From contig NZ_LMJA01000031.1 of NCBI RefSeq assembly GCF_001428895.1, positions 563,010-627,009 on the forward strand: DNA of 64,000 nucleotides, given 5' to 3'. The stretch is from Mycobacterium sp. Root265. GTDB taxonomy: Bacteria > Actinomycetota > Actinomycetes > Mycobacteriales > Mycobacteriaceae. How positions within the stretch are numbered: the first letter of the stretch is position 1; every line of letters starts with the position of its first letter. Shown here in pieces: positions 31,198 to 40,728 of this stretch. The translations under genes were made by a program, and so were the position numbers. The notes beneath the pieces were generated by a model. That model did no database searches. It was not told the DNA's origin and saw nothing but the letters and a program-made list of their open reading frames with translations.

Positions 31198-31845
31198 TCA
31201 CACCGACAGCTGGGGGAAGGCCTCGCGTAGTGCCGCCACGGCCTCCTCGCCTCCCTCACATCGCACGCGCCTGACTGCCGCCCTGCGTCGCGGGGCGGTC
31301 GACGCAAGCCGGGCCATCACCAGGTCGTCGGCACTCGCCGTCACCACGACGTCGGGAGCACCGTCCGCGGCCGCCAGACGTCTATGGTCCACCGAGAACT
31401 CGAAGACGCGGTCGTCGATGTCGATGCGGTAGGACGCGCGCAGGTCGCCGGCGCCATCCGGGTCGAAGCCCAGGAGCAGGCCGGTGAGGAATCCGCTCAG
31501 CGGTGTCCGCTGCGGGTGATCGAGGTCGACCTGATCCATCCCGAACTCGGCGATGGCCTTCACCACGGGGACGGTCTTTTGCCAGCCGAGGTCACTGAGC
31601 GCGTACACCGTCCGCGCGATCGGTGCAGGCAGGTCGATACGCGAGACCAGGCCCGCTTCCTCCAGCGCGCGCAGCCTGTCCGCCAGCAGATTGGTGGCGA
31701 TGCCCGCAAGCTCGGCGCGCAGATCACTGTAACGCCGCGGCCCACCCATCAACTCGCGCAAGATGAGTAGCGTCCATCGTTCGCCGAGGACATCCAAACC
31801 CAGTGCTACAGGACAATTCTGGCGGTAGGTCTTCGGCGCGGACAC
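31198..31845 (-). CDS. HxlR-type regulator with C-terminal SCP2-like domain
   Basis: 215 residues. N-terminal HxlR winged helix (about 10-100): NCPVALGLDVLGERWTLLIL, RRYSDLRAEL, NLLADRLRALEEAGLV, with the conserved Cys at residue 11. Residues about 130-215 have the pattern of an SCP2 lipid-carrier domain (YRIDIDDRVFEFSVDH, then GAPDVVVTASADDL). A C-terminal ligand-binding SCP2 domain would let it sense a hydrophobic compound. It diverges from the Fe-S/SCP2 protein at 31992, whose C-terminal domain has the same G-A-P-D-x2-V-T-A-x2-D signature, suggesting a common ligand. Confidence 0.83.
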   Translation of the reverse strand: MSAPKTYRQNCPVALGLDVLGERWTLLILRELMGGPRRYSDLRAELAGIATNLLADRLRALEEAGLVSRIDLPAPIARTVYALSDLGWQKTVPVVKAIAEFGMDQVDLDHPQRTPLSGFLTGLLLGFDPDGAGDLRASYRIDIDDRVFEFSVDHRRLAAADGAPDVVVTASADDLVMARLASTAPRRRAAVRRVRCEGGEEAVAALREAFPQLSV

Positions 31846-31991
31846 GGGCCGATCATACGCTCGTCAGCCTATGTGGGTAAGTCGCATCTATCCGGTTGCC
31901 GACATCATCCATTTGGACATGTTTTTAGTCATGTTACTTGATTTTCTTGTCTCTACTGTGGATCATCACTGTTGACGACGAAGGAGGCCTT

Positions 31992-33335
31992 ATGGCCAAA
32001 CCCAACAAGCTCGAAGACCATCCGAATGTGATCGCGGTGCGGCAGCGCGATCAGGCCAGAATCCCCGCCCAACCGCTCGACGAGTCCTGGCTGCGTCAAC
32101 TGTGTCTGGACGCAGGCGCCGACGACGTGGGTTTCGTACACATCGATCGCCCAGAAATCGCGGATCAACGACCGGATCTCAACGCGGCACTCCCGGGTGT
32201 CAAAGTGCTGATCAGCTATGTCTGTCGCATGAACCGGGAGAGCATTCGCACCCCGGCGCGCTCGGTGGCCAACCTCGAGTTCCACCACACCGGCGACCAC
32301 TGCGACGATGTCGGCCGCACCGTGGCGAGCAAGCTGGAAGCGATGGGTGTCCGCGCGATCAACCCCTCCATGGGATTCCCCATGGAAATGAACAACTTTC
32401 CCCGCAAAACATGGGTCGTCAGCCACAAGCCGGTGGCGGTGGCGGCGGGCCTGGGAAAGATGGGGATTCACCGCAACGTCATTCACCCCACCTTCGGGAA
32501 CTTCATCCTGCTCGGCACCGTGCTCATCGACGCGGAGGTCAGCGACTATTCCGCACCGATCACCTACAACCCGTGCCTGGAATGCAAACTCTGCGTCACC
32601 GCCTGCCCCACCGGAGCGATCGCCGCCGACGGACACTTCGACTTCTCGGCCTGCTACAGCCACAACTACCGCGAGTTCATGGGCGGCTTCACCGACTTCA
32701 TCGAGGACGTCGCCGACAGCAAGGATTCCACCGACTTCCGTTCGAAGGTCACCGCCAACGAGTCGGCGTCCATGTGGCAGAGCTTGTCCTTCGGCGCCAA
32801 CTACAAGGCCGCCTACTGCATGTCGGTGTGCCCCGCCGGCGAGGACGTCCTGGGGCCCTGGCTCGATGACCGCAAGAAGCACCTCACCGACGTGGTACGC
32901 CCCTTACAAGCCAAAGAAGAACCCGTGTACGTCATCGAAGGATCCGACGCCGAAGAGTTCGTGACGAAACGCTATCCACACAAGACGGTGCGTCATGTCG
33001 GTCAGACGTTGCGGGCCACGAGCATCGACGGTCTGGTCGAAGGCCTGCCGATCATCTTTCAGCGCGAGCAGGCGAAAGGCGTATCGGCGCGCTACCACTT
33101 CACCTTCACCGGGTCCGAGCCGCGCAAGATCACGGTGACGATCGGGGACCGAGAACTCGATGTCGCCGAGGGGCACCACGGTGCGCCCGACATCCACGTC
33201 ACCGCCGACTCGGACACCTGGATCCGTTTCCTGAACAAACAAGCGTCCCTGCCCTGGGCGCTGGTGCGCCGCCGCATCACGATCAAGGGTTCACCCCTGC
33301 TCCTGCGCACTTTCGCGCGCTGCTTCCCCACCTGA
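31992..33335 (+). CDS. QueG/reductive-dehalogenase-like double [4Fe-4S] protein with SCP2-like C-terminus
   Basis: 447 residues from ATG 31992 with AAGGAGG. N-terminal half (25-190) has the QueG/RdhA look: DESWLRQLCLDAGADDVGF, then VAVAAGLGKMGIHRNVI and TFGNFILLGTVLIDAE. A first cluster C-x2-C-x2-C-x3-CP (CLECKLCVTACP) at about 195-206 is followed by FSACYSH (about 221) and CMSVCPAGED (about 276-280) that complete the second cluster. Residues about 325-447 are an SCP2-like domain (PRKITVTIGDRELDV, GAPDIHVTADSDTW). No Tat signal, so cytoplasmic. QueG-type proteins bind cobalamin, but no cofactor can be read here. A PDR-type reductase follows directly. Confidence 0.8.
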   Translation: MAKPNKLEDHPNVIAVRQRDQARIPAQPLDESWLRQLCLDAGADDVGFVHIDRPEIADQRPDLNAALPGVKVLISYVCRMNRESIRTPARSVANLEFHHTGDHCDDVGRTVASKLEAMGVRAINPSMGFPMEMNNFPRKTWVVSHKPVAVAAGLGKMGIHRNVIHPTFGNFILLGTVLIDAEVSDYSAPITYNPCLECKLCVTACPTGAIAADGHFDFSACYSHNYREFMGGFTDFIEDVADSKDSTDFRSKVTANESASMWQSLSFGANYKAAYCMSVCPAGEDVLGPWLDDRKKHLTDVVRPLQAKEEPVYVIEGSDAEEFVTKRYPHKTVRHVGQTLRATSIDGLVEGLPIIFQREQAKGVSARYHFTFTGSEPRKITVTIGDRELDVAEGHHGAPDIHVTADSDTWIRFLNKQASLPWALVRRRITIKGSPLLLRTFARCFPT

Positions 33336-33387
33336 GTGCGCGCGCAGCCGTTCCCACATCGACCACCGCGGACAAGGAGAGCCGGAC

Positions 33388-34350
33388 ATGAACATGTTCT
33401 TCGTCGACACCGAGCACGACCTCGTGGTGCAGAGCAAGTCAGTGGTCGCAGACGATGTCGTCATGCTGACCTTGCGCGATCCGCACGGTCGACCGGCACC
33501 CACGTGGCAGCCGGGCGCCCACATCGACCTCGTGCTGGACGAGGGGCTGGTCAGGCAGTACTCGCTGTGCGGGGACCCCGCAGATCGATCCAGCCTGCAG
33601 GTCTCGGTGCTGCGGTCGCCCGACAGCCGTGGCGGATCGCGCCATGTGCACGACGAACTGGTCGAAGGCCAGCAGATCCATATTCGCGGGCCACGCAACA
33701 ACTTCGAGTTCGTCAGAGCGAGGCGCTACCTGTTCATCGCCGGTGGGATCGGGATCACCCCGATACTCCCGATGATCGCTGCCGCCCACGCACAGCGCGC
33801 CGACTGGCGCCTGGTCTACGCGGGTCGCACCCGAGCGTCGATGGCGTTCCGCGAGGGACTGCAGCGCACCTACGGCAAGCGGGTCCAGATACGTCCGGCC
33901 GATGAGTACGGACGCCTGGATCTCACGTCGCTGCTCGGGCGCCCGAAGAAGCGGACTGCGGTGTACTGCTGCGGTCCGGAACCCCTGCTCGACGCCGTCG
34001 AATCCGCCAGCGCGAACTGGCCGGAAGGGGCACTACACCTGGAGCGCTTCGCGCCGAAGACAAGCCAGGGCACCGATACCGACCGCACATTCGAAGTCGA
34101 ACTCTCCCTATCCGGCGAGACGGTGACGGTGCACGCGGACATATCCATCCTCGATGCCGTCGAAGACGCGGGAGTGCCGATGATGTCCTCATGCGAAGAG
34201 GGCGTCTGCGGCACCTGCGAGACAACAGTGTTGTCCGGCTCGGTCGATCACCGCGACTCGATTCTCAACGCCACCGAACGCGAGGCCGGTGACACGATGA
34301 TGATCTGCGTCTCCCGCGCACGTGGTGACCGGCTGGTCCTCGAACTCTAG
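33388..34350 (+). CDS. Phthalate-dioxygenase-reductase-type (VanB-like) flavoprotein with 2Fe-2S domain
   Basis: 320 residues. Order: flavin domain with VRQYSLCGDPA; NAD(P) domain with YLFIAGGIGITPILPMI and AVYCCGPEPLLDAV; and a C-terminal plant-type ferredoxin C-x4-C-x2-C (CEEGVCGTC at about 269-277) with a fourth Cys in MMICVSRA. Class IA oxygenase reductases of this kind pass electrons from NAD(P)H through flavin and 2Fe-2S. No Rieske oxygenase is nearby; the likely acceptor is the Fe-S/SCP2 protein 52 nt upstream. In known aerobic reductive dehalogenases such a reductase module is fused to the dehalogenase. Confidence 0.88.
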   Translation: MNMFFVDTEHDLVVQSKSVVADDVVMLTLRDPHGRPAPTWQPGAHIDLVLDEGLVRQYSLCGDPADRSSLQVSVLRSPDSRGGSRHVHDELVEGQQIHIRGPRNNFEFVRARRYLFIAGGIGITPILPMIAAAHAQRADWRLVYAGRTRASMAFREGLQRTYGKRVQIRPADEYGRLDLTSLLGRPKKRTAVYCCGPEPLLDAVESASANWPEGALHLERFAPKTSQGTDTDRTFEVELSLSGETVTVHADISILDAVEDAGVPMMSSCEEGVCGTCETTVLSGSVDHRDSILNATEREAGDTMMICVSRARGDRLVLEL

Positions 34351-34826
34351 GCCGGACCGGCCTCGATGTCCGACGCCGATACCGAATGACCTGCGCCACA
34401 GCGAATTTCGACATCGATCGGCGCGCCGCACTCCGCGTGTGTCAGCTTGACTCGTCCTCCATCGGCGCGGACCCAGCGGTCACCCCAGCGCATCAAGGCC
34501 AGCAGCGCAGGCCCGAAGTCCTCGCCCTTCTCGGTGAGGTAATACTCCTCGCGGCCGCGCTGGCCGGGTTCGTGGTACGGCCGCTTCTCCAGCAGCCCCT
34601 CCTCCACGAGCTCCCTCAGCCGGGTGGCGGTGATCTTCTCGCTGAGCTTGGCCCGCCGGGAGAACTCCTCGAACCGGTGCGCGCCGTAAAACGCCTCCCG
34701 CAACAGCAACAGGCTGGCGCGTCGCCCGACGACGTCCAGCGCCGCCGCAACGGAGCAACCGTCCGCCGACCAGGCATCACGGTCGGTGAGCCGGCCGGTG
34801 AGTGTCATGGAGGTCATAACGGCCAT
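34347..34826 (-). CDS. HxlR family transcriptional regulator (CAR operon)
   Basis: 159 residues from ATG 34826; ATGs at codons 5 and 7 are alternatives. HxlR winged helix: GCSVAAALDVVGRRASLLLL with the conserved N-terminal Cys, RFEEFSRRAKLSEKI, TRLRELVEEGLLEKR. The C-terminus has a small Cys/His group (ECGAPIDVEIRCGAGH), perhaps a metal or redox knuckle. HxlR members such as HypR and YodB sense electrophiles or aldehydes through Cys. It diverges from the CAR gene, and the gap holds three copies of an AGTCAG/CTGACT motif. Confidence 0.87.
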   Translation of the reverse strand: MAVMTSMTLTGRLTDRDAWSADGCSVAAALDVVGRRASLLLLREAFYGAHRFEEFSRRAKLSEKITATRLRELVEEGLLEKRPYHEPGQRGREEYYLTEKGEDFGPALLALMRWGDRWVRADGGRVKLTHAECGAPIDVEIRCGAGHSVSASDIEAGPA

Positions 34827-34921: not shown

Positions 34922-37900
34922 GTGACCGCTGGAACACCGACCGCAACCGCGGTCGACGCCGACCCACAACTGCAGGCGGCCGTTCCGCGTCCCGATGTGC
35001 TCGGCGCAGCGCGTCGCCCCGGGTTGCGGTTGTCGCAGGTACTTCAGACCCTGGCCCAGGGATACTCCGATCGTCCGGCATTGGGCACCAGGGACCGCGA
35101 GACGGTCCGCAACGAAGCCGCCGGTAGCAGCGCCACCCGATTACTCCCCGCGTTCACCACCGTGTCCTACGGCGAGCTCTGGTCCGATGTCCGCGCCGTC
35201 GCCGGCGCGTGGCACCACGACCACCGTGATCCCATCCGGCCGGGTGATTTCGTGGCGGCCATCGGTTTCTCCAGTGCCGACTACCTCACGATCGACTTGG
35301 TGTGCGGCTACCTGGGGCTGGTGTCGATACCGCTGCAGCACAACGCCACGGCATCTCGGCTGACGCCCATCCTCGACGAGACCAGGCCGCGGGTACTCGC
35401 GGCCGGTGCGGCCTATCTCGACCTGGCCGTGGAGTCGGCGCTCGGAGTGCGCGAGTTGTCACGGATGGTCGTCATGGATTACCGCGCCGATGATGTGCAG
35501 CACGCCGAAAGCCTGCAGCACGCCCGGGACACATTCTCGGCCGCGGGGATGGACGTCATCATCGAAACCCTGCCTGAGCTCATCGCGCGGGGCAAGAATG
35601 CCCCCGAGGCCCCGATCTACACCGATGGATCCGACGACCGGCTGGCGATGATCCTCTACACCTCCGGCAGCACCGGCACCCCTAAAGGTGCCATGTGGAC
35701 CGAGCGGATGGTCGCCACGCTGTGGACGATTCCCACGAAATCGACCGAGTCGGCGGTGATCAACGTCAACTTCATGCCGCTCAACCACCTCGGAGGACGG
35801 CTGCCGCTGTCGGCGTCGTTCCAGACCGGCGGCACCAGCTACTTCGTCGCCGAGAGCGACCTGACGACACTGTTCGAGGATTGGGCGCTGGCGCGACCCA
35901 CCGACCTGGGCCTTGTTCCCCGTGTCGTGGACATGCTCTACCAGCGCTACCAACAGATCAGGGATCGACTGCTGGCGGGCGGCGCCGACCCTGACGTCGC
36001 CGAACAGCACGCCAAGACCGAGATCCGCGAAAAGCTGCTCGGCGGACGGGTTCTCGGTGGGTTCGTCAGTACTGCCCCGCTGGCCGCGGACATGCGATCG
36101 TTCCTGGAATCGACTCTGCAGGCCGACCTGGTGGACACCTACGGGTTGACCGAGATCGGCGCGGTCACCACCGACGGTTACGTGGTGCGGCCGCTGGTCA
36201 TCGACTACAAGCTGATCGACGTCCCGGAGCTGGGCTATTTCAGCACCGACAAACCCCACCCTCGGGGCGAGCTGCTGGTCAAGAGCGCCGCCGCCATGTC
36301 CGGTTACTACAAGCGTCCCGAGCTCACCGCCGAGGTCTTCGACGCCGACGGCTATTACCGCACCGGCGATGTCGTGGCCGAGATCGCACCGGATCGGCTG
36401 GCCTATGTCGACCGCCGCAACAATGTCATCAAACTGTCCCAGGGTGAGTTCGTCGCAGTGGCCAATCTGGAAGCCATTTACGCCGGCGCCCCACTGATCC
36501 GGCAGATCTTCATCTACGGCAACAGCGAGCGCCCCGGCCTGCTTGCCGTCGTCGTCCCCACCGACGATGCGTTGGCCACCTACGGCGGGGCCAACGCCGA
36601 ACTGAAGGCGGCCGTGCGGGCCGGACTCTCCAAGACGGCCCGCGAGGCCGATCTACAATCCTACGAGCTGCCGGTCGACTTCCTGCTCGACGCCGAGCCG
36701 TTCACCTCCGACAACGGGCTGCTCTCCGGAGTGGGAAAGCTGCTGCGCCCGAAGCTCAAGGAGCGGTACGCAGCCGAGCTCGAGCAGATGTACGAGCAGC
36801 TGGATGCCTCCCGGGCAGACGAGGTGCGGGCGCTGCGGGACGCGGCGCGCCACCAACCGACCGTCGACGTCGTCGTGCAGGCGGCCGCCGCACTGCTCGG
36901 CACACCCGTCGCAGAAGTCACCCCCGGTGATCGCTTCCTGGACCTGGGCGGCGACTCGCTGTCGGCGCTGACCTTCTCGAACCTGCTGTACGAACTGTTC
37001 GCCGTGGAGACTCCCGTGGGAGTACTGACCGGGCCGACAACGACTCTGGGCGACATTGCGGACTACCTCACGAGGGAGGCCGGGGACGGGCCGTCCGCCC
37101 CAACGGCGGCCAGTGTGCACGGATCGAGCACCGGCTCGATACACGCCACCGATCTCACTCTCGACAAGTTCCTGCCGAAACCCCTTCTGGCGGAGGCCGG
37201 TACGATGCCGCCACCCGAGGACTGCGCACCCGGCGTCGTTCTTTTGACCGGCGCCAACGGTTATCTGGGTAGATTCCTGGCGCTGGAGTGGCTGCAGCGG
37301 CTCTCAGAGACCGGTGGAACACTGATCTGCCTGCTGCGCGGCGCCGACGACGACTCCGCCCGGGCACGTCTGGAGGACGTCTTCGACAGCGGCGACGCCG
37401 GACTGCTCGAGCATTTCCGGACGCTGGCCGCCGCTCATCTTGAGGTCATCGCCGGCGACATCAGCGAGCCACTGTTCGGCCTCGACCCACACGTCTGGGA
37501 CGGCCTTGCTCAGCGGGTCGACCTCATCGTCCATCCGGCCGCCCTGGTCAACCACATGCTGCCGTACCGACAACTGTTCGGCCCCAACGTCAATGGAACG
37601 GCCGAGGTGATCCGGCTGGCACTCAGCACGCGGCTCAAACCCGTCAGCTACCTGTCCACGGTGTCGGTCGCGATGACCGTCGAGCCCGGACGCTTCGAGG
37701 AGGACGGTGACATCCGCGAGATCAGCCCGGTGCGACCGATCGACGACTCCTACGCCAACGGATACGGCAACAGCAAGTGGGCCGGCGAGGTATTGCTGCG
37801 CGAGGCCCACGACCTGTGCGGTCTGCCGGTGTCGGTGTTCCGTTCGGGAATGATCCTGGCCCACCGCCGCTACGCCGGTCAGCTCAACGTCCCCGACATG

Positions 37901-38434
37901 TTCACCCGCCTGGTCTACAGCCTGCTGGTCACCGGTCTGGCACCCCGATCCTTCTACGAGACGGGCCCTTCGGGGCAGCGTGCCCGTTCGCACTACGACG
38001 GTCTGCCCGTGGACTTCGTTGCCGAAGCGATCACCGCGCTCGCCACCGCGGCCGGTCCCGGTTTCCGGTCCTACGACGTGATGAACCCGCACGACGACGG
38101 TGTGTCCCTGGACGTGTTCGTGGACTGGATGATCGACGCCGGACACGCCATCAACCGGGTAGACGATTACGGTGACTGGCTCAACCGATTCGACACCGCG
38201 CTGCGTGCCCTCCCAGACGCACAACGACAGCATTCGGTGCTTCCGTTGCTGACGGCCTACAGCCGACCGGAGCGGCCGGTGCTGGGTGCGCTCGCGCCCG
38301 CGGAGGTGTTCCGGCACGCCGTGCAGCAGCAGAACATCGAAGGCGCCGACGACATTCCACACCTGTCGCGACAACTGATCGAGAAGTACGTGTCGGATCT
38401 GTTCGCAACCGGCCTTCTCCCGCAACGCGGTTGA
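34922..38434 (+). CDS. car: Carboxylic acid reductase (CAR)
   Basis: 1170 residues, normal CAR length, GTG start with AGGAG 5 nt upstream. Domains: adenylation (about 1-640; ILYTSGSTGTPKGAM near 240, DTYGLTEIG, TGDVVAEI); carrier domain (about 650-740) with DLGGDSLSAL carrying the phosphopantetheine Ser; and an NADPH reductase domain from about 770 (LTGANGYLGRFLALEW; catalytic Tyr/Lys in YGNSK). It reduces carboxylic acids to aldehydes using ATP and NADPH, and needs a PPTase, none here. It heads an operon with an MFS exporter and an SDR that could reduce the aldehyde. Natural substrate unknown. Confidence 0.95.
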   Translation: MTAGTPTATAVDADPQLQAAVPRPDVLGAARRPGLRLSQVLQTLAQGYSDRPALGTRDRETVRNEAAGSSATRLLPAFTTVSYGELWSDVRAVAGAWHHDHRDPIRPGDFVAAIGFSSADYLTIDLVCGYLGLVSIPLQHNATASRLTPILDETRPRVLAAGAAYLDLAVESALGVRELSRMVVMDYRADDVQHAESLQHARDTFSAAGMDVIIETLPELIARGKNAPEAPIYTDGSDDRLAMILYTSGSTGTPKGAMWTERMVATLWTIPTKSTESAVINVNFMPLNHLGGRLPLSASFQTGGTSYFVAESDLTTLFEDWALARPTDLGLVPRVVDMLYQRYQQIRDRLLAGGADPDVAEQHAKTEIREKLLGGRVLGGFVSTAPLAADMRSFLESTLQADLVDTYGLTEIGAVTTDGYVVRPLVIDYKLIDVPELGYFSTDKPHPRGELLVKSAAAMSGYYKRPELTAEVFDADGYYRTGDVVAEIAPDRLAYVDRRNNVIKLSQGEFVAVANLEAIYAGAPLIRQIFIYGNSERPGLLAVVVPTDDALATYGGANAELKAAVRAGLSKTAREADLQSYELPVDFLLDAEPFTSDNGLLSGVGKLLRPKLKERYAAELEQMYEQLDASRADEVRALRDAARHQPTVDVVVQAAAALLGTPVAEVTPGDRFLDLGGDSLSALTFSNLLYELFAVETPVGVLTGPTTTLGDIADYLTREAGDGPSAPTAASVHGSSTGSIHATDLTLDKFLPKPLLAEAGTMPPPEDCAPGVVLLTGANGYLGRFLALEWLQRLSETGGTLICLLRGADDDSARARLEDVFDSGDAGLLEHFRTLAAAHLEVIAGDISEPLFGLDPHVWDGLAQRVDLIVHPAALVNHMLPYRQLFGPNVNGTAEVIRLALSTRLKPVSYLSTVSVAMTVEPGRFEEDGDIREISPVRPIDDSYANGYGNSKWAGEVLLREAHDLCGLPVSVFRSGMILAHRRYAGQLNVPDMFTRLVYSLLVTGLAPRSFYETGPSGQRARSHYDGLPVDFVAEAITALATAAGPGFRSYDVMNPHDDGVSLDVFVDWMIDAGHAINRVDDYGDWLNRFDTALRALPDAQRQHSVLPLLTAYSRPERPVLGALAPAEVFRHAVQQQNIEGADDIPHLSRQLIEKYVSDLFATGLLPQRG

Positions 38435-38449
38435 CGTCGAGGCCACGAC

Positions 38450-39877
38450 ATGACCACCTCCGCCAACACCCGGCCGGGCGCCGTCCTGGTGATCACCTCA
38501 TCGGCGGCCTTCCTGGCGACGCTCGATCTGTTCATCGTCAACATCGCCTTCCCCGCCATCAGCGCTGACTTCCCGGACGCCGACTTCGGCCAGATGTCCT
38601 GGGTGCTGAACAGCTATACCGTCGTCTTCGCCGCGGTACTGGCGCTGGCCGGCCGCCTCGCCGACCGCTACGGCCACCGACGGATCTTCCTGATCGGACT
38701 GGCGATCTTCACCGTCGCGTCCGCGGCCTGCGCGCTCGCGCCCCACCTGTGGGCGCTGGTGGCCGCCAGGACCGTCCAAGGTGTCGGGGCGGCCCTGATC
38801 ACACCGACCTCATTGTCGTTGCTGCTCAACGCCTGGCCCGCCGAACGGCGCGCCAAAGCGGTCGGCACCTGGGCGTCGGTGGGAGCGGTCGCTGCCGCTC
38901 TCGGTCCGCCGCTGGGCGGACTGCTCGTCGCCGCGGGCTGGCAATGGGTGTTCCTGGTCAACGTTCCCATCGGCATCCTCACCATGGTGGCCGCGGCTCG
39001 TGTCCTCCGCGAATCCGACATCACGGCGATCGGACGACCCGATCTGCTCGGCGCTGCTTTCCTGGTGCTCGGAGTCGGTGCGCTGGCCTTCGCGTTGGTC
39101 GAAGTGCCCGAGCGGGGCTGGGGCGCAACGCTGGTCGTCACTTCACTCGCCGTTTCGCTGGTGGGCATGACCGCGGTGGTGATCCGCTCGCGCCGCCATC
39201 CGGTGCCCGCGCTGGATCTCGCAGTGCTGCGTGTCCCCGAGTTCGCGCTGGCCACCGTCATGATGCTGGCCTTCTCGTGCGGATTCGCCGGGATGCTCCT
39301 GGTCAACGTGCTGTATCTCACCTCCACCTGGGGCTGGTCGGCTCAGGCCGCCGGTCTCGGCCTTGCGGCAGGCCCGGCCGTCGTTGTCGTCGTCGCCCGA
39401 CAGGCGAATCGCCTGACGGCACGGCTGGGAATCGGAGCCGCCGCCACGCTGGGCGCCCTGAGCTTCACGGCCGGTGCGCTGTGGTGGCTGTGGCGGCTCG
39501 GGCCATCGGAGAACTATCTAGGCGGCCTGTTGCCCGGCCAGCTGCTGACCGGCCTGGGAGTCGGGCTGATCCTGCCGACCCTGTCTTCGGTCGTGGGGTC
39601 CGCGCTGCCGGCACCACGCTGGGGTTCGGGTTCGTCGCTGATCAACACCGCCCGGCAGGTCGGCTCGGTACTGGGCATCGCGCTGATCGTCACCGTGGTC
39701 GGGACGCACATCGCGAGCGCCCCCACGGAGTTCGCGTCCATCCGCTCCGGCTGGGTGCTGCTGGCCACGGCCGGAGCCACCACTGCCCTCGTCGGCCTCG
39801 CCTTGGGCGCCGTGGAGTCTCTGGCCCATCGGCGGTCACGCGCAGCGCCACACGACAGTCCACTGAGAACACCATGA
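38450..39877 (+). CDS. MFS transporter, DHA2 family
   Basis: 475 residues, about 14 hydrophobic segments. Motif A ALAGRLADRYGHRRIFLIG, motif C GAVAAALGPPLGGLLV and LDLFIVNIAFPAISADF in TM1 place it with 14-TM drug exporters. 15 nt after CAR; its last codons overlap an in-frame ATG (ATGA at 39874) of the SDR frame. Co-transcription with CAR suggests export of the acid, aldehyde or alcohol handled by this operon. Confidence 0.87.
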   Translation: MTTSANTRPGAVLVITSSAAFLATLDLFIVNIAFPAISADFPDADFGQMSWVLNSYTVVFAAVLALAGRLADRYGHRRIFLIGLAIFTVASAACALAPHLWALVAARTVQGVGAALITPTSLSLLLNAWPAERRAKAVGTWASVGAVAAALGPPLGGLLVAAGWQWVFLVNVPIGILTMVAAARVLRESDITAIGRPDLLGAAFLVLGVGALAFALVEVPERGWGATLVVTSLAVSLVGMTAVVIRSRRHPVPALDLAVLRVPEFALATVMMLAFSCGFAGMLLVNVLYLTSTWGWSAQAAGLGLAAGPAVVVVVARQANRLTARLGIGAAATLGALSFTAGALWWLWRLGPSENYLGGLLPGQLLTGLGVGLILPTLSSVVGSALPAPRWGSGSSLINTARQVGSVLGIALIVTVVGTHIASAPTEFASIRSGWVLLATAGATTALVGLALGAVESLAHRRSRAAPHDSPLRTP

Positions 39878-39912: not shown

Positions 39913-40728
39913 ATGCCATCATCGCGACCCGTCGCACTCATCACCGGCGCCAACTCCGGTCTGGGTAAGTTCGCCGCCCTCGGTCTCGTGGAGGCCGGTT
40001 TCGACGTCGTCGGCACCAGCCGCAACACCACGGGACTGGATTCCCGCCCGGGCGTGACACTTCGCGACCTCGATGTCACCAGCGACGAGTCGGTCGCCAC
40101 GCTCGTCGAGGGCGTGATCGCCGACTTCGGGCGCATCGATGTCCTGGTCAACAATGCCGGCATGGGACTCGCCGGCGCCATCGAGGAGAATTCGATCGCG
40201 CAGCAGCAGAAGCTGTTCGACATCAACGTCTTCGGCGTCGTCAGGATGACGAACGCCGTGCTGCCGCACATGCGGGCTCGTGGAAGCGGACGGATCATCA
40301 ATATCTCCTCCATCTTCGGATTCATGCCCGCCCCGTACATGGCCGCCTACAGCGCCACGAAATATGCCGTCGAAGGCTATTCGGAGTCCGTCGACCACGA
40401 GGTCCGCGGCCACGGCATCAGGGTGTTGCTCGTCGAACCGGGCGGCACCAGAACCGGTTTCGACGACAACACCACGGCACCGGACAATCCGCTGGACGTC
40501 TACGCCCGGCAGCGCAGCCGCGCCAACGGTGTGGTGGCAGAGCAGGTCAACGGCGGCGAGGACCCCGTGACTGTCGCCAAGGCCATCGTGGCTGCCGCCA
40601 CCGATCAGAAACCCAAGCTGCGCTACCCGGCCGGCGTGAAGGCGCGCCAGCTCAGTGCCATGCGCCGGGCCGTTCCCAGCCGCATCTTCGACAAGCAGTT
40701 ACGTAAGACCTTCGAACTCACTGATTGA
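39913..40728 (+). CDS. Short-chain dehydrogenase/reductase (classical SDR)
   Basis: 271 residues from ATG 39913, which has AGGAAAG upstream; an ATG at 39874 overlapping the MFS stop is in frame and would add 13 residues. Motifs: TGANSGLG (coenzyme glycines), NNAG, and YSATKYA with Tyr/Lys; Ser in INISSIFG. Third gene of the CAR operon. As an oxidoreductase it may convert the CAR aldehyde to an alcohol or act on the parent alcohol. C-terminal extension KLRYPAGVKARQLSAM resembles members acting on longer substrates. Confidence 0.87.
   Translation: MPSSRPVALITGANSGLGKFAALGLVEAGFDVVGTSRNTTGLDSRPGVTLRDLDVTSDESVATLVEGVIADFGRIDVLVNNAGMGLAGAIEENSIAQQQKLFDINVFGVVRMTNAVLPHMRARGSGRIINISSIFGFMPAPYMAAYSATKYAVEGYSESVDHEVRGHGIRVLLVEPGGTRTGFDDNTTAPDNPLDVYARQRSRANGVVAEQVNGGEDPVTVAKAIVAAATDQKPKLRYPAGVKARQLSAMRRAVPSRIFDKQLRKTFELTD

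Follow-up and report, generated by a model that had tools for sequence, protein, structure and literature searches.

What is reduced, and by which kind of iron-sulfur (Fe-S) centre, at a locus of Mycobacterium sp. Root265 in which a protein akin to epoxyqueuosine reductase (QueG) and the reductive dehalogenases (RdhA) ends in a lipid-type SCP2 domain, is followed by a flavin reductase, and is faced by an HxlR regulator ending in a domain of the same type? The locus lies in the window, that is, the whole stretch of 64,000 nucleotides (nt) of contig NZ_LMJA01000031.1 (positions 563,010 to 627,009, forward strand) that was analysed, and all coordinates given here are positions in it. From its sequence the cluster is proposed to encode an enzyme that reduces a lipophilic compound with electrons from NAD(P)H and is controlled by an HxlR protein sensing a lipophile, a reading to which we give an even chance. 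The three open reading frames on which the first-pass annotation of this DNA was built (P0001, P0002, and P0003) were recovered where it had placed them, with 52 nt between the genes of P0002 and P0003. The following features carry the argument:

31198..31845, reverse strand: HxlR regulator P0001 with a C-terminal SCP2-type domain (PF01638, E-value 1.1e-18)
31207..31503, reverse strand: SCP2-type domain of P0001, about residues 115-213 (profile-profile comparison, PF02036 scan of alignment A2, pairwise alignment)
31937..31953, forward strand: conserved motif CTTGATTTTCTTGTCTC between the genes of P0001 and P0002, a candidate HxlR operator or promoter element
31992..33335, forward strand: P0002, a QueG-like Fe-S protein of 447 residues fused to SCP2 (open reading frame and domain scans)
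32574..32831, forward strand: cysteine region of P0002, with C195, C198, C201, C205 / C221, C276, C280 and H224 (alignment of 108 relatives)
32808..32810, forward strand: codon of Ala 273 of P0002, the place of the absent fourth ligand cysteine (Ala in 105, Ser in 3 of 108)
33000..33332, forward strand: SCP2 domain of P0002, residues 337-447 (PF02036 over cut-off)
33388..34350, forward strand: P0003, a flavin-NAD-[2Fe-2S] reductase of PDR/VanB type (Fer2, NAD_binding_1, and FAD_binding_6 over cut-offs)

Family membership of the Fe-S protein

P0002, encoded in a single copy in the 6.67 Mb genome, had been taken for a protein of QueG/RdhA type. Its best match among the NCBIfam models is TIGR00276 (QueG; E 4.7e-16, 58.7 bits) and its second TIGR02486 (RDH; E 2e-7, 31.2 bits), but both scores lie below the curated cut-offs, 200 and 160.35, respectively, and by these cut-offs P0002 is neither QueG nor RdhA. 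What stands is homology over the whole QueG domain: P0002 and 80 relatives (the best 80 of 348 candidates from one scan of representative genomes, at ≈ 60-90% identity) were aligned by hhalign with 16 true QueG sequences from carrier genomes, the over-cut-off locus L158 being excluded, and this gave a probability of 98.6 and an E-value of 9.4e-16 over 265 columns (residues 28-339). Fer4_16 was matched with 30.1 bits, barely above its cut-off of 30. The domain DUF1730 (PF08331), proposed earlier as a check, was not found in P0002, with no listing at E ≤ 1; the control was positive in 7 of 14 genomes.

The C-terminal SCP2 domain, on the other hand, proved to be as predicted, with 30.9 bits against a PF02036 cut-off of 21.3, and SCP2 was present in each of 50 long family members scanned (E ≤ 0.01). 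With the C-terminus of P0002 as query, no SCP2 structure was retrieved from the PDB by sequence at E ≤ 10. Measured against the class III cobalamin proteins (QueG/RdhA), P0002 has the homologous N-terminal module and ferredoxin core, as judged by sequence profile; in place of two fully Cys-ligated [4Fe-4S] clusters, its proximal ligand set is one cysteine short, and where QueG of S. thermophilus has C-terminal HEAT repeats, SCP2 is found instead. The system is presumably cytosolic, as no twin-arginine signal is visible by eye.

With QueG as the best NCBIfam match, a QueG paralogue acting on tRNA might be considered. This is highly improbable, since a true QueG over the cut-off is also present in 17 of the 24 carrier genomes or records tested, the active-site residues are changed, and SCP2 replaces the HEAT repeats (QueG as described in PMC4646009). 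QueG function was thus rejected for P0002, which combines a score under the cut-off with an altered active site, seven ligand cysteines, and a true QueG alongside in those carriers.

Cysteine ligands and active site

In QueG of S. thermophilus the ligands are C184, C187, C190, and C243 for the cobalamin-distal cluster and C194, C210, C236, and C239 for the cobalamin-proximal one (PMC4646009). The corresponding residues were surveyed in 108 relatives of P0002, 81 of them long and 27 short. Seven ligand cysteines and H224 are kept in all 108, except for C201 (107 of 108, Gly in one). Of the two sets, the distal one has all four of its cysteines (C195, C198, C201, C280) and the proximal one only three (C205, C221, C276). 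The fourth proximal ligand is absent, position 273 being Ala or Ser throughout, and in none of the 108 sequences does any Cys occur between W262 and C276. That fourth cysteine is present at position 273 in the 16 QueG loci read and in three distant relatives, the alignment of this position having taken in four QueG sequences and these three. The loss is fixed among the sampled sequences and is probably a derived change. Of the two Fe-S clusters claimed at first, the seven conserved cysteines and the full distal set therefore uphold one, whereas the second is without its fourth cysteine in all 108. The three distant relatives, which have eight cysteines (L231-L233), come from three genomes that belong to a single family within the same phylum; an HdrA-like gene, identified by a scan of the neighbour, adjoins L233 and is a possible electron donor.

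The invariant set of Cys, His, and Trp residues is common to long and short forms. It includes H224, in the arrangement C221-x2-H224, which could be a cluster ligand. That H224 substitutes for the lost cysteine is an idea weakened by two of the three eight-cysteine relatives, as these already have the histidine.

The active site of QueG comprises D100-Y101-H102 and D130 in S. thermophilus numbering (PMC4646009). MAFFT pairs D130 with K139, a position occupied by Lys in 77 and Arg in 31 of the 108 sequences (Lys 77 and Arg 4 in the long forms, Arg in all 27 short forms), and hhalign places D130 in a gap. D100-Y101-H102 pairs with D102-H103-C104, whose last two residues are variable, or, in an alternative register, with the invariant E96-F97-H98. 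Whichever register is chosen, Tyr 101 and Asp 130 of QueG are not kept.

These changes could be taken to indicate a cobalamin-free enzyme that reuses the QueG fold, the proximal [4Fe-4S] cluster binding the substrate directly through an open iron or one ligated by His 224. The case would be made by the uniform Ala/Ser at position 273 and the cysteine-free segment from W262 to C276, set against the Cys of the 16 QueG proteins and the three distant relatives, by the loss of Asp 130, and by the invariance of C221-x2-H224. We nevertheless regard it as rather unlikely, as the N-terminal module has been retained and H224, with its occurrence in two eight-cysteine relatives, need not replace a ligand. 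For base-off cobalamin binding, no distinct sequence motif marks the proteins concerned, according to PMC4646009.

Electron supply

A VanB-type reductase had been noted 52 nt downstream of the P0002 gene, with no Rieske oxygenase nearby. Both observations held: in P0003 a flavin domain is followed by an NAD domain and a C-terminal 2Fe-2S domain (FAD_binding_6, 12-108; NAD_binding_1, 116-205; Fer2, 242-311; all over cut-off, every NCBIfam match shown being below), and none of the 25 Rieske matches of the genome falls inside the window. Across the 80 loci of the relatives, a reductase adjoins the enzyme or is fused to it in 25, and two unrelated kinds in three arrangements can be distinguished. 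An orthologue of P0003, 65-82% identical, lies downstream in 15 loci, in 14 of them within 82 nt and in L028 at 1480 nt. Six mycobacterial loci have instead, within 41 nt, a Fer4/Pyr_redox_2 protein (domains scanned in one member), which we take to be a ferredoxin/NADPH reductase of the FprB type. In four loci the enzyme itself carries a fused C-terminal FAD_binding_6/NAD_binding_1/Fer2 module (one member domain-scanned), a distant relative of P0003 with 28-32% identity. Either the P0003 orthologue or the Fer4/Pyr_redox_2 reductase is present in each of the 21 loci that mycobacteria, Streptomyces, and Lentzea contribute.

Electron supply by an adjoining reductase is thus well supported, and the best evidence that the enzyme is a reductase at all is that two unrelated kinds of donor accompany it. 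Along these lines, the suggestion that the lipid-type domain here belongs to a reductive system fed by NAD(P)H has gained in substance through the 25 loci. The four fusion proteins (L040, the member scanned, L056, L057, and L083) come from Planctomycetes or Acidobacteria and string together the Fe-S core, SCP2, and the FAD/NAD/2Fe-2S module in ≈ 820-860 residues.

A published parallel is the NADPH-dependent RdhA that is naturally fused to a phthalate-dioxygenase-like reductase (PMC10463259). Together with the four enzyme-reductase fusions and the RDH model match of P0002, it would speak for a catabolic reductive dehalogenase, in which halogen is removed from a hydrophobic organohalide in a cobalamin-dependent manner and the reductase has been split off. 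We hold this to be quite unlikely: 31.2 bits is far under the RDH cut-off of 160.35, the proximal cluster has lost a cysteine, and an identity of 60-90% across phyla including cyanobacteria would be odd for an enzyme acting on pollutants.

Distribution of the enzyme family

The 80 loci belong to Actinomycetota (25), Planctomycetota (22), Cyanobacteriota (15), Acidobacteriota (9), Nitrospirota (6), Methylomirabilota (1), and Hydrogenedentota (1), with one locus (KSB1) lacking a phylum label; many are metagenome bins, and some phyla are represented by bins alone. Among named organisms, Mycobacterium and Mycolicibacterium provide the closest relatives of P0002. An eighth phylum, Bacillota, is added by two plasmids from Priestia, and a Nostoc plasmid carries the enzyme as well; in the three plasmid records with a full-length copy it is annotated as 'SCP2 sterol-binding domain-containing protein'. 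Matches were obtained in 12 of 396 evenly drawn Actinomycetota genomes, three of these being distant relatives, and the distribution is therefore patchy. On the Priestia megaterium plasmids (L137, L138) the enzyme lies near genes annotated as TetR, ABC permease, short-chain dehydrogenase/reductase (SDR), FabF, and MaoC, neighbours that hint at fatty-acid-like or polyketide-like chemistry. Genes annotated as ester cyclase occur near the enzyme on the Nostoc plasmid L139 and on the Priestia plasmid L137.

Within the genus, 86 of 198 genomes have a match to the enzyme, and three of them, including the window's own, have one that reaches SCP2. A short, SCP2-less form (L122-L136) is found in mycobacteria near pth-, rplY-, and prs-like genes (named by eye from translations), apparently an inherited chromosomal place. 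A tree of 59 rows (45 long forms, 8 of the 27 short forms, 6 of the 16 QueG sequences) places the short forms inside the long ones, its root being weak (QueG outgroup, branch length 5). Because of this nesting, loss of SCP2 is likelier than descent from a short form, and the short form was set aside as the ancestor, with the proviso that the root is unsure.

The regulator and its promoter motif

P0001 is an HxlR protein (PF01638, 67.3 bits; cut-off 20.8) that had been said to end in an SCP2-like domain. Taken alone, P0001 matches PF02036 under the cut-off (E 0.045, 14.5 bits vs 21.3). The claim draws support from the orthologues, 23 of the 29 members of alignment A2 matching SCP2 at E ≤ 0.1 (best 1.5e-6), and from hhalign, which aligns the regulator C-terminus with the SCP2 domain of the enzyme over 94 columns (probability 93.0, E 3.3e-7). 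The orthologue in L013 gave no SCP2 match at E ≤ 0.1. An HxlR paralogue in the same genome, L003, has the same architecture, with SCP2 scores of 22.4 and 20.8 bits in two scans, above and below the cut-off of 21.3; set against the SCP2 groups by hhalign, it gave weak probabilities of 17.5 and 24.3, and the paralogue L004 gave nothing.

The further idea that the regulator domain is a copy of that of the enzyme did not find support. The SCP2 domains of P0001 and P0002 are 24% identical over 104 residues in a one-sequence comparison, and their distributions are separate, so that recent copying is not supported either. Near-full-length HxlR-SCP2 orthologues (E ≤ 1e-50, 56-66% identity) were found in 46 of the 198 same-genus genomes, the own one included, a 47th match covering residues 5-129 only. 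The fused enzyme co-occurs in 2 of these 46 genomes and is absent from 44. In 17 of 20 inspected loci, in which genes were picked automatically, HxlR-SCP2 is divergent from a transporter of the major facilitator superfamily (MFS). HxlR-SCP2 and the enzyme stand together in the window and in 6 of the 80 loci, and with P0003 they complete the trio in the window and in 2 of the 80; the trio proposed as a unit is accordingly rare, while the enzyme-reductase link within it extends more widely, to the 25 loci described above.

Elsewhere, other ligand-type regulators, MarR, HxlR (in many actinobacterial loci), and TetR, accompany the enzyme. In 44 of the 55 non-actinobacterial loci, and in none of the 25 actinobacterial ones, the enzyme gene is preceded at up to 700 nt by a co-oriented MarR-type gene (one member scanned, over cut-off); a TetR gene stands beside the enzyme on the two Priestia plasmids, and an HxlR gene like that of P0004, the second HxlR protein of the window, is located upstream in 8 of 13 Streptomyces and Lentzea loci.

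Alignment of the window with L013 and L014 revealed a conserved block in the gap between the genes of regulator and enzyme. Its consensus CTTGATTTATTTGTCTA, begun by reading sequences by eye and refined solely on 20 enzyme-less HxlR-SCP2 loci, occurs with ≤ 4 mismatches in the promoters of all seven enzyme-bearing loci and of 18 of those 20 enzyme-less ones, vs 17 of 1946 random stretches, which were drawn from the same loci under a loose mask, so that some background matches may be the motif itself. The form CTTGATTTTCTTGTCTA has a single site in the genome at ≤ 2 mismatches, namely 31937-31953, 38 nt before the start of the enzyme gene; five further sites have 3 mismatches (reversed control, 3 sites), and the mean number expected in the window at ≤ 3 mismatches is 0.00. 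A perfect dyad operator was looked for in the intergenic region and dismissed, as palindromes of 6 nt only were present; the conserved element is the 17-nt motif, which could serve as an operator or belong to the core promoter. As a predicted element, it ties both arrangements, enzyme-bearing and MFS-facing, to the HxlR-SCP2 regulator, and the sharing of it makes joint regulation likely.

The absence of a fused-enzyme match from 44 of the 46 same-genus genomes and the divergent transporter in 17 of 20 loci would suit a regulator that adjoins by chance, HxlR-SCP2 controlling the transporter only and the enzyme module having landed between the two. We consider this rather doubtful, given that the sole good motif site of the genome lies 38 nt before the enzyme gene and that the motif is kept in all seven enzyme-bearing loci despite their differing gene orders.

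Neighbouring genes

Downstream of P0003 the window holds the following genes:

34347..34826, reverse strand: second HxlR regulator P0004 (PF01638, E 6.3e-18)
34922..38434, forward strand: AMP-binding / PP-binding / NAD_binding_4 protein, presumably carboxylic acid reductase-like by its domain order (domain scan)
38450..39877, forward strand: MFS transporter (PF07690, E 6.3e-44), sharing 73% identity with its counterpart in L032, one of the transporter cluster that faces HxlR-SCP2
39913..40728, forward strand: short-chain dehydrogenase (PF00106, E 4.1e-50)

No SCP2 match was found in P0004 by domain scan. Its gene is convergent with that of P0003, the last 4 nt of which it overlaps, and divergent from the carboxylic-acid-reductase-like gene; with the latter, the transporter, and the dehydrogenase it looks like a second regulatory unit. 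A homologue of the transporter that elsewhere faces HxlR-SCP2 is thus present in the window, as listed. Carboxylic acid reductase was dropped as a constant partner of the enzyme, since 1 of the 80 loci showed it at E ≤ 1e-8 (L030, a match of 71 residues).

Proposed working of the system

If the cluster reduces a lipophilic compound at the expense of NAD(P)H, electrons would pass through the flavin and the [2Fe-2S] cluster of P0003 and enter P0002 at the distal cluster, whose ligand set is full (C195, C198, C201, C280). The proximal cluster with its three cysteines (C205, C221, C276) would take them over and hand them to an active site that would lie in the QueG-like N-terminal module and probably contain a cobamide. 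A hydrophobic substrate would be held or delivered by the SCP2 domain of the enzyme. HxlR-SCP2 would sit on the CTTGATTTTCTTGTCT motif, its grip being altered by a ligand in its own SCP2 domain. The cobamide, the substrate, and the ligands of both SCP2 domains are what we infer. The probable source of the regulator is the regulator/MFS pair, which is more widespread, and this origin points to a lipophile, foreign or made by the cell itself, that is detoxified or catabolised. A more specific proposal, a further, lipid-directed branch of QueG/RdhA in which the loss of a cysteine from the proximal cluster would let an open or His-held iron take part in catalysis on an SCP2-held substrate, with the regulator SCP2 reading the same class of lipophile, is tentative and on the whole doubtful.

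Several observations weigh against NAD(P)H-dependent reduction of a lipophile under HxlR control. None of the named reductases was recognised next door in 55 of the 80 loci, including all four from Nocardia. Of the 86 same-genus matches, 83 (one of them, G089, a short fragment) extend no further than residue 350 and lack SCP2. At 15 short-form loci, in ≈ 7 kb and at E ≤ 1e-6, neither a reductase of either kind nor HxlR-SCP2 nor MarR was found, and neither partner is therefore indispensable to the core. Furthermore, as read from the alignments, the proximal cluster is without one ligand and QueG active-site residues are changed, and the conserved motif could mark a core promoter instead of an operator.

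Comparison with known systems

The literature searched yielded no description of this enzyme or of the HxlR-SCP2 architecture, nor any paper joining these families. The assembly is real and uncommon, and the enzyme family is of greater interest than the trio. Further uncharacterised families combining B12 and [4Fe-4S] clusters may exist without a distinct sequence motif (PMC4646009). The P0002 family is a candidate for one of them, in which a ligand of the cofactor-side cluster has changed naturally and likely donors adjoin the enzyme. It allows two questions to be tested directly, namely whether a three-cysteine cluster can function in the QueG/RdhA superfamily and which lipophile is reduced; HxlR-SCP2 with its motif is a candidate lipophile biosensor.

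With the HxlR regulators (PF01638), P0001 shares the N-terminal winged helix, to which it adds the SCP2-type domain. P0002 resembles QueG (TIGR00276; PDB 5d6s, 5d08) by homology over residues 28-339, by its complete distal ligands, and by the ferredoxin-type second half; it differs in having neither the fourth proximal ligand nor Asp 130, in carrying SCP2 for the HEAT repeats, and in scoring below the cut-off. In UbiT/UbiU/UbiV of E. coli, an SCP2 protein serves [4Fe-4S] enzymes that act on a hydrophobic substrate; the enzymes there are others, on separate polypeptides, and the likeness is one of described roles. NpRdhA and BhbA belong to the catabolic NADPH-fed reductive dehalogenases. In another of these, JtRdhA (PMC10463259), an Fe-S core is likewise served by a fused or neighbouring flavin/[2Fe-2S] reductase, from which the P0002 system differs by its added SCP2 domain, its seven cysteines, and an RDH score far under the cut-off.

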